Assembly (NCBI GenBank): GCA_009841165.1
Contig: VXMI01000075.1
Coordinates: 1 to 40,704 of the forward strand
Length of the DNA: 40,704 bases
Direction of reading: 5' to 3'
From: Gemmatimonadota bacterium
Lineage (GTDB): Bacteria; Gemmatimonadota; Gemmatimonadetes; Longimicrobiales; Gaopeijiaceae
The notes under the pieces are model-generated. The model did not search any database. It worked only from the letters and a program-made list of their open reading frames with translations, and was not told the origin of the DNA. Positions 9,276-11,774 of this stretch are shown here, piece after piece. The stretch's first letter is position 1, and each line of letters opens with the position of its first letter. The translations under genes and the position numbers were made by a program.

Positions 9276-9291
9276 GGCGCCGCTACGCCTC
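9274..9291. terminator. Hairpin spanning the convergent stop codons
   Basis: A perfect 6-bp stem (GAGGCG / CGCCTC) with a 6-nt loop. The propeller gene's TGA overlaps the left arm and the OsmC-family gene's TAG is in the loop. It may serve as a bidirectional terminator. No T-tract is present on either strand, so factor-independent termination is uncertain. Confidence 0.35.
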
Positions 9292-9747
9292 CGTCACGTC
9301 CGCCGACCAGGTGATCTCGACCGCGTCCTTCAGGCTGCACGCCGTCGGGCACTTGCCGACGTGCGTGGCCAGTGCGCGGTCCACCTTGTCGCGCGGCGCG
9401 CCCTCCGGCAGCCGGATCGTGTAGTGGGCGTGGATGCGGGTCAGTACCACGATCCGGTCCACGACCTCGTTGGTGCCTTCCGCGGTGACGCTGATCGCGT
9501 CGTTGGCCATCGGGATCCCGCGCACCTCCAGTGCGCCGTTGAGGGTCCCGAGCAGTCAGCCGGCCGCGGCCGCGACCAGGTAGTCGACGGGGAGCGGGCG
9601 GTCGGGTTCGTCGTGCAGCCGGTAGTGGGCCTTGATCGGACCGTGGACGCCGAAGTCGACCTCGGTGCCGTCGGCGAGGGTGGCGCGGCGGTGGATCCCG
9701 TCGACCTTGGTGACGGTGGCGTGGGCGGTGTAGAATGGGCTGCTCAT
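9283..9747 (-). CDS. OsmC-family peroxide reductase, probable selenoprotein (in-frame UGA at codon 64)
   Basis: The frame from the ATG at 9747 to the TAG at 9283 is 155 codons with a single internal stop, TGA at 9558-9556. Residues 1-63 end in PVDYLVAAAAG and the frame resumes LLGTLNGALEVRGI, continuing to THVGKCPTACSLKDAVEITW. OsmC/Ohr proteins reduce organic and hydrogen peroxides using two cysteines: one in a (G/A)GC segment at the start of the central helix, one in a later CP segment. Here the TGA falls exactly on the first, and the second is present as Cys133. Reading UGA as selenocysteine gives a normal-length 154-residue protein, and a SECIS-like hairpin follows the UGA. The gene is 44 bp downstream of diaminopropionate ammonia-lyase on the same strand. 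Alternative: a nonsense-mutated pseudogene, but both halves keep conserved sequence. Confidence 0.85.
9511..9550 (-). promoter_or_regulatory. Candidate bacterial SECIS element
   Basis: Immediately 3' of the in-frame UGA on the minus strand. Numbering bases after the UGA, nt 20-25 (GCGCAC) pair perfectly with nt 31-36 (GTGCGC) around a 5-nt loop UGGAG. An outer stem pairs nt 6-10 (CGGGA) with nt 41-45 (UCCCG), and nt 11-13 can pair with nt 37-39. The apical loop starts 25 nt after the UGA, has a G at its second position and is small, all matching known bacterial SECIS geometry. The high GC content raises the chance of accidental pairing. Confidence 0.7.
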
Positions 9748-9791: not shown

Positions 9792-11027
9792 TCACGCCGA
9801 AGGTACATCGGCGCCACCGCCGCCGGAACCCACAATCCGTGCGTACAGCTCCGGGTCGGTGGCTCCCTCGGTGTTGAAGACCAGGACGCGCGACTCCCGC
9901 CCAAGCCCGATGGCACGGCACAGGTCGGCGTCGCCCGCCGCCTCGATCAGCCCCAGCAGTCCCGCCACACCCGATTCGCCGCCCTCGAACGGCTCGCCCA
10001 GTGCGCCGCCGGCGGCCGCTCGCATGAGAGCCCTGATGCCCCCGTCCCGCACGGTCATGAAGGCGTGCGCGCCGGCGCCCACGACCTCCCAGGCCAGCGG
10101 CGAGATCTCCCGGCAGCTCAGCCCCGCCATGATCGTGTGCAGGTCGCCCCGGGCCACACGGGGCGCCCCCGCGCAGCCGCTCCGGTACAGCCCATCGGCC
10201 TCCTCGGGCTCGACGATGACCGCGACGGGGCGTTCGGGCCCCAGCCGCTCCCACAGGTGGCCGATGACCGCCGCGGCCAGGCCGCCGACGCCGCCCTGGA
10301 TGAAGACGTGGGTGGGCGATGGCCCCTGGTGGGTGGCTGACGATGCCCTCAGGGCTTCCAGGGCCTCCTCGACCATGACGGTGTATCCCACCATCACCAG
10401 GCGCGGGATCTCCATATAGCCCGGGTAGGACGTGTCCGAGATCACCGTCCAGCCGTTGTCGCGCGCGTCGCGGGCGGCCTGCGTGACCGCGTCGTCGTAC
10501 TCGCCGTCCACGCGCACCACGCGGGCGCCGAACGACCGGATCGCGGCGGCGCGAACCTCCGTGACGTGCGTGGGCAGGTAGATCACGGCGTTGAGGCCGA
10601 ACATGCGGGCGCCCCATGCGACCGAGCGGCCGTGGTTGCCGTCGGACGCGCAGGTGACGGTGGGCGCCGCCGACGGAGTACGCCGCGGCCCGTGCCCATC
10701 GCCGCCGGACGCTCCCGGCCGCCAGGTGAAGCCCGTCGGCGCCGCGGCCGTATCTCCCCCCATCATCACCCGCAGCACTCCATAGGCACCGCCGAGCGCC
10801 TTGAAGCTGCCGAGACCGAAACGGCCGCTCTCATCCTTCACATGAACCGACGCCAGCCCCAACCGCGACGCCAGATGGTGCGCGGATCTCAGCGGGGTCG
10901 GCCGGTAGTCGGGCCACGAAGAGATCTCGGTGCGGGCGGATCGGTGGGCGTCGAGATCGATGACGGCAGCCGGCCGGCGCGGGTAGGGACCCGGTGGGGC
11001 GGCGTTGGGGTTGATGGTCCAGGGCAA
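9792..11027 (-). CDS. dpaL: Diaminopropionate ammonia-lyase (PLP-dependent)
   Basis: 411 residues from a TTG at 11027, chosen because GGAG lies 7 nt upstream; a TTG at 11081 is also in frame but would leave only 21 bp to the divergent msrA. The protein is a fold-type II PLP enzyme: [20 protein letters not shown] contains the PLP lysine (Lys76), followed by [16 protein letters not shown] for the phosphate side, a [14 protein letters not shown] glycine loop, and [15 protein letters not shown]. These match the YgeX/DpaL family, which converts 2,3-diaminopropionate to pyruvate and two ammonia. A short Gly/Pro-rich insertion lies between the lysine motif and CASDGNHG. Probably cotranscribed with the OsmC-family gene. 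Confidence 0.88.
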
Positions 11028-11102
11028 GCGGGGGCTCCGGGTTGCGGCGGGCGGGCAGTCCGGCAGGAAAAAACCGGGCAAGTCTATTACCTTCCTTGGG
11101 CT

Positions 11103-11774
11103 ATGGATCTACGTCAAATGTTTGGTGGCGTGTTGAAGCTCCGGCGTCCGGATCCCGGCGAAGCGCTGGCTGGTCGGACCGAGCCGCTTCGTGTACCCGT
11201 CGCGCACCACGTAAACGGCAATCGGATCAAGCCTCCCTTCCCGGCGGGGTTCCAGCAGGCGTACTTCGCAATGGGCTGCTTCTGGGGCGCGGAACGGATC
11301 TTCTGGGAGCTGCCCGGCGTGTATTCAACGGCCGTGGGCTACCAGGGAGGGCTGACTCCCAACCCCACCTACCAGGAGGTCTGCAGCGGCCGCACGGGGC
11401 ACGCCGAGGTGGTGCTGGCCGTCTTCGATCCCGACCGGATCTCGTATGCGACGCTGCTCGCCGCGTTCTGGGAGGGCCACGACCCCACGCAGGGCATGCG
11501 GCAGGGCGCCGACATCGGCACCCAGTACCGCTCGGCGATCTACACCGTCGGGGATCCGCAGCGCCGCCTGGCGGTCGAGTCGCTCGACCGCTACCAGGGG
11601 GAACTGGCGCAGGCCGGCTACGGGAGCATCACGACCGAGATCGAGGACGCACCGCCGTTCTACTACGCCGAGGAGTACCACCAGCAGTATCTGGCCAAGA
11701 ATCCGGGAGGATACTGCGGACTGGGCGGCACCGGCGTGTCCTGTCCCAGCGGCGTCGCCGAACCCGTGGACTAG
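11103..11774 (+). CDS. msrA: Peptide-methionine (S)-S-oxide reductase MsrA
   Basis: 223 residues from the ATG at 11103. The catalytic motif GCFWG is at 58-62 (nucleophile Cys59), followed by VGYQGG and the TGHAEVV segment typical of MsrA. The tail carries [10 protein letters not shown], supplying likely resolving cysteines. It reduces methionine-S-sulfoxide in damaged proteins in the cytoplasm, using thioredoxin. The first 50 residues precede the catalytic domain and are longer than in the shortest bacterial MsrA. There is no clear Shine-Dalgarno; a second ATG lies at 11118. Divergent from dpaL with 75 bp between. Confidence 0.95.

Follow-up and report, generated by a model that had tools for sequence, protein, structure and literature searches.

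Proteins of the OsmC type that contain selenocysteine (Sec) are already known as a kind, both from the OsmC-like selenoprotein with a UxxT motif described in the Sargasso Sea and GOS metagenomes (PMC1088965, PMC2398784) and from the NCBIfam model NF041052 (OsmC_like_Se), which probably represents the Sargasso Sea family. The gene analyzed here lies in a stretch of 40,704 nucleotides (the window), contig 1 of a 4.27 Mb draft Gemmatimonadota MAG with 239 contigs and a completeness of 96.6%. An earlier note on this DNA had mentioned Sec-containing OsmC-like proteins from marine metagenomes; the statement was correct (PMC1088965, PMC2398784), but those proteins belong to a different subfamily. The Sargasso/GOS proteins and the present gene share the PF02566 domain, Sec at the redox-Cys position and a SECIS behind the UGA, and are set apart by the published motif, UxxT as against U-x-x-G-T with invariant G67-T68. 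The window protein scored 25.5 bits with NF041052, below the curated cut-off of 95; the best E-value among 45 orthologues was 6.8e-10, and the paralogue groups B and C matched weakly too. One of the 395 genomes of the phylum passed the cut-off, with a protein that has no in-frame stop and carries the Cys motif CYMT (CxxT), in keeping with the UxxT motif published for the Sargasso/GOS proteins. To judge from these sequence comparisons, the UxxGT proteins are a separate Sec-OsmC subfamily, spread through the phylum.

In the tree, groups A, B and C formed an all-Sec group (support 90/85) with no Cys form inside, and in Gemmatimonadota the subfamily was found in the Sec form alone. Groups A–C might even be a selenium-obligate OsmC family, in which no Cys form exists, the chemistry needs selenium and differs from Ohr peroxidation, and the SECIS stem dictates residues 72 and 75 (Ala/Val, Ala/Ala and Val/Ala following the base pairing), although this proposal is doubtful. 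In the open-licence literature searched, no description was found of the UxxGT subfamily, of how widely it is spread through the phylum, of its covarying SECIS or of its apparent restriction to Sec. The selenoprotein papers searched have little to say about this phylum, which now gains a lineage-wide selenoprotein subfamily; and as the subfamily apparently uses Sec exclusively, the question why some enzymes fail to revert to Cys becomes open to testing. Since the curated OsmC selenoprotein model misses the subfamily, standard annotation probably truncates or splits the gene.

Another set of Sec-OsmC proteins from the same phylum (group D, family f4, L166-L173; genomes G303, G184, G155, G121, G192, G283, G120, and G152) likewise has UGA at the redox-Cys position, followed by a SECIS-like hairpin of its own form, UCGCGC-UGUAU-GCGCGA. 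Group D is a different subfamily (LGAUTSMT), also below the NF041052 cut-off, and in the tree it joined L174, a Cys protein, with support of 100/99. A separate origin of Sec in group D appears likely from the sequences, with a single origin for D and A–C not rejected (p-AU 0.10). Group D matches with two TGA codons looked like di-Sec proteins, a reading that was discarded because the second TGA is the normal terminator.

The earlier note had described an OsmC-like frame at 9283-9747, uninterrupted except for a TGA at codon 64, where the first catalytic Cys is expected, and with a second Cys in KCP. The coordinates are correct and the strand, which had been left unstated, is minus (Table 1). 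Read from 9747 to 9283, the frame ends in TAG and has TGA64 as its sole in-frame stop, with the read-through product ATG...VDYLVAAAAG-TGA-LLGTLNGALE...KCPTACSLK...TAG. The 154-residue protein matched Pfam OsmC (PF02566) with 53.9 bits (cut-off 27.5), and when the family profile is aligned with OsmC of Thermus thermophilus (1ukk), codon 64 and Cys133 stand opposite its first and second redox Cys, respectively. Curated profile cut-off, fold and both redox positions all placed the protein in the OsmC/Ohr superfamily. The gene almost certainly encodes a selenoprotein of this superfamily, as the note had considered probable; its reading is now supported by the Sec machinery, by purifying selection and, independently, by a covarying SECIS hairpin.

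Table 1. Features of the Sec-OsmC locus, in positions of the window.
Feature	Position	Strand	Basis or remark
Sec-OsmC gene	9283..9747	minus	154 codons + TAG; read-through translation, Pfam OsmC, OsmC/Ohr-fold model
Start codon ATG of the Sec-OsmC gene	9747-9745	minus	Read-through translation
In-frame UGA, codon 64, predicted to be read as selenocysteine	9556..9558	minus	Peroxidatic-Cys position of OsmC/Ohr
Putative bSECIS hairpin GCGCACU-GGA-GGUGCGC	9520..9536	minus	Codons 71-76; fold, synonymous suppression, covariation
Cys133 (TGC), second (resolving) redox Cys, in KCPTA	9349..9351	minus	Alignment with 1ukk
Diaminopropionate ammonia-lyase family (PALP) gene, upstream neighbor	9792..11081	minus	NF006058, 427 bits (cut-off 276)
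msrA domain (approximate start), Cys in GCFWG, no selenoprotein	11196..11774	plus	TIGR00401, 216 bits

An AlphaFold2 model built from 45 relatives (mean pLDDT 96.4) showed the OsmC/Ohr fold, with Z scores of up to 15.6 (2onf) against OsmC/Ohr structures and of about 7 for unrelated entries. The Ohr/OsmC thiol peroxidases 1ukk, 1nye, 1qwi, and 1n2f have the same fold (Z 12.8-14.0; 14.0 for E. coli OsmC, 1nye) and both redox positions. They possess a peroxidatic Cys and an active-site Glu, whereas the present protein has Sec and Val/Asp: in the alignment Val54 occupies the position of the Ohr catalytic Glu, 10 residues before the redox residue, and is adjoined by the invariant Asp55. The Glu paired with an active-site Arg that marks Ohr/OsmC peroxidases is therefore missing. 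The top Foldseek match was the YhfA-type OsmC 1ml8 (COG1765; Z 14.5), which has the same fold, 23% identity and Cys where the present protein has Sec. 1ml8 is E. coli YhfA, and a PxD-type motif before the redox position is common to YhfA-type OsmC and the present protein.

By analogy with Ohr and OsmC, a hydroperoxidase function seems somewhat the better assumption for Sec-OsmC. The Sec64 selenol, placed in the long central helix of a presumably dimeric protein, would attack an organic hydroperoxide or a similar electrophile, and the resulting selenenic acid would form a selenylsulfide with Cys133, as expected from Ohr/OsmC chemistry (PMC5962072); by the same chemistry a dithiol of the lipoyl or thioredoxin type would then reduce the selenylsulfide. 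The peroxidase step is uncertain because the Glu of Ohr is replaced by Val with a neighboring invariant Asp, as in YhfA-like proteins. The protein could accordingly be a selenoprotein but no hydroperoxidase, that is, a YhfA-like OsmC whose Sec does different chemistry, acting for instance as a reductase of another electrophile or as a selenium carrier. Val54 with Asp55 one residue on and the first place of 1ml8 in the Foldseek list speak for this explanation, as does the fact that the activity of YhfA-type members is unknown (PMC5962072). Against it, the protein retains both redox positions together with an invariant Arg20, and the Ohr and OsmC proteins assayed are thiol peroxidases (PMC5962072), which leaves the YhfA-like explanation with an appreciable, though minor, chance.

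Whatever the reaction, the bSECIS hairpin directly behind UGA64 would recruit SelB-GTP-Sec-tRNA(UCA), and the comparative evidence shows, so far as such evidence can, that the ribosome inserts Sec at UGA64 rather than terminating. The apical loop GGA lies about 25-26 nt downstream of UGA64, a distance within the bSECIS criteria of PMC13188914. A stretch of 59 nt folds at -25.4 kcal/mol (z -2.1), with about -12.7 kcal/mol predicted for the hairpin alone, and no matching Rfam family was found at the hairpin region. In the 77 distinct genes of group A, synonymous codons vary freely over most of the length and are nearly frozen at positions 71-77 (GGC 76/77, GCA 66/77, CTG 77/77, CGC 76/77); the mean excess identity was 0.30 at codons 65-76 vs 0.02-0.06 elsewhere. 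Native hairpins averaged -12.4 kcal/mol, as compared with -7.7 for random synonymous versions, the difference per sequence being modest, as on average 6% of the random versions were equally stable.

Codons 72 and 75 co-vary. The pair GCA/GTG was present in 66 group A genes, GCG/GCG in 9 of group A and 13 of groups B and C, and GTG/GCA in 1 and 4, respectively, with one G-U case. In groups A and B, 99.7% of the stem cells were paired and both sides had changed in 30 cells; a control slid by 1-3 bases gave at most 71% pairing and 0 double-sided changes. In a tree leaving out these columns, the pair state at codons 72/75 changed about 8-11 times, a number of independent events that is approximate, few of the branches concerned being strongly supported. 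On this covariation, the SECIS stem is maintained by matched mutations. The overlap of RNA and protein is clean, as residues 72 and 75 change jointly and the hairpin is kept, and the covarying stem offers a natural data set, from outside E. coli, on the rules that bacterial SECIS elements follow. Four of the six group C genes (L122, L124-L126) have GCC/GCC at these codons and do not form the A/B stem, and RNAalifold therefore gave a weak consensus when groups A, B, and C were taken together; no consensus hairpin was established for these four genes, whose SECIS must be of another shape. The genome of the window also holds a second Sec-OsmC (L003, group B), at the end of G000 contig 38 and cut by the contig end, with the GTG/GCA combination in its SECIS stem.

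The same region bears on the idea that UGA64 is a regulatory stop, with a hairpin that is merely regulatory and a true product consisting of a 63-residue peptide or arising by re-initiation at GTG 9525. An 80-codon ORF does begin at 9525, and since termination and the reading of Sec generally compete in bacteria, some short product is likely. However, codons 65-74 are conserved as amino acids, with G67, T68, L69, G71, and L73 invariant in the alignment between the UGA and the GTG 9525 region, and in the model residue 64 lies inside a single helix (53-75) of one domain. Split cistrons were rejected on these grounds, and the regulatory stop is very unlikely.

Conservation of the UGA was followed in the relatives. 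In a first set, TGA at codon 64, Cys133 and a single in-frame stop were present in all 62 loci. A larger set gave TGA together with Cys133 in 128 of 135 OsmC copies. The remaining seven (L147-L153) have TGC at the redox position and belong to remote subfamilies (~27-33% identity); no Cys form was found among the 128 UGA-bearing copies of the clade. The search of the 395 phylum genomes likewise listed close relatives that all carry TGA at codon 64; two same-genus hits of this search list one TAG as well, outside the stretch aligned in the first set, which is probably the normal terminator. C133-P134 was invariant in alignment A1. The search for a Cys form beyond the phylum consisted of one contig scan, reaching close relatives only, and no homologue was found on plasmids. 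Values of dN/dS were mostly about 0.1-0.3 on both sides of UGA64, indicating that both flanks are under purifying selection; random frameshifts and stops in relatives, which the earlier note had regarded as evidence against a selenoprotein, were not what was found.

A pseudogene or a sequencing or assembly error, in which a Cys codon had decayed to TGA and the gene was dead or miscalled, must also be weighed, TGA being one substitution away from TGC or TGT and the source being a draft MAG in 239 contigs. Nevertheless, 128 relatives, assembled independently and drawn from several families, have the identical TGA, dN/dS is well below 1 downstream of UGA64, and the SECIS covaries. Pseudogene, chance stop and assembly error were rejected on the conservation of the TGA across relatives, and this explanation is highly improbable.

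A genome lacking all Sec machinery had also been named as adverse to the selenoprotein reading; SelA, SelB, SelD, and tRNA-Sec(UCA) were all present. SelB (644 aa) scored 317.5 bits (cut-off 242), SelA was seen only in two fragments, one at the end of contig 99 and the other at the end of contig 204, and SelD scored 386.6 bits, with an in-frame UGA of its own in GAGUACKLG (L013:1465-2523), which makes it a selenoprotein too. In a hand tally of the 395 phylum genomes, SelB was found in 111 of the 114 that carry the gene vs 170 of the 281 others (Fisher P 2e-16); the three carriers without a strong SelB match (G024, G163, G195) are draft genomes. If UGA were reassigned throughout the genome and stood for an ordinary amino acid, as it does in codes 4 and 25, the frame would equally be open, as under any code with UGA as sense; the probability of this is negligible because TGA terminates five of the eight genes examined in the neighborhood, the UGA sits precisely at the redox Cys, and SelA, SelB, SelD, and tRNA-Sec are present.

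Finally, the dpaL and msrA genes that the earlier note had seen beside the Sec-OsmC gene are both present; the synteny is essentially genus-level and thus says little about function, so a functional linkage was rejected and neither gene was counted as part of the system. Outside the genus, many relatives (L077, L092, and others) have a Cu-oxidase_4 (YfiH-like) gene in front of them, often at a distance of ~200 nt, and adjoin a divergent 2-oxoglutarate dehydrogenase E1 gene. This arrangement hints at lipoyl metabolism, but none of the adjacent genes seen encodes a lipoylated protein. Additionally, JAPPNF01, titled Deltaproteobacteria, contains two copies (L066, L067) on two contigs with the full genus-type synteny; the record is probably a Gemmatimonadota MAG that has been mislabelled or mixed.
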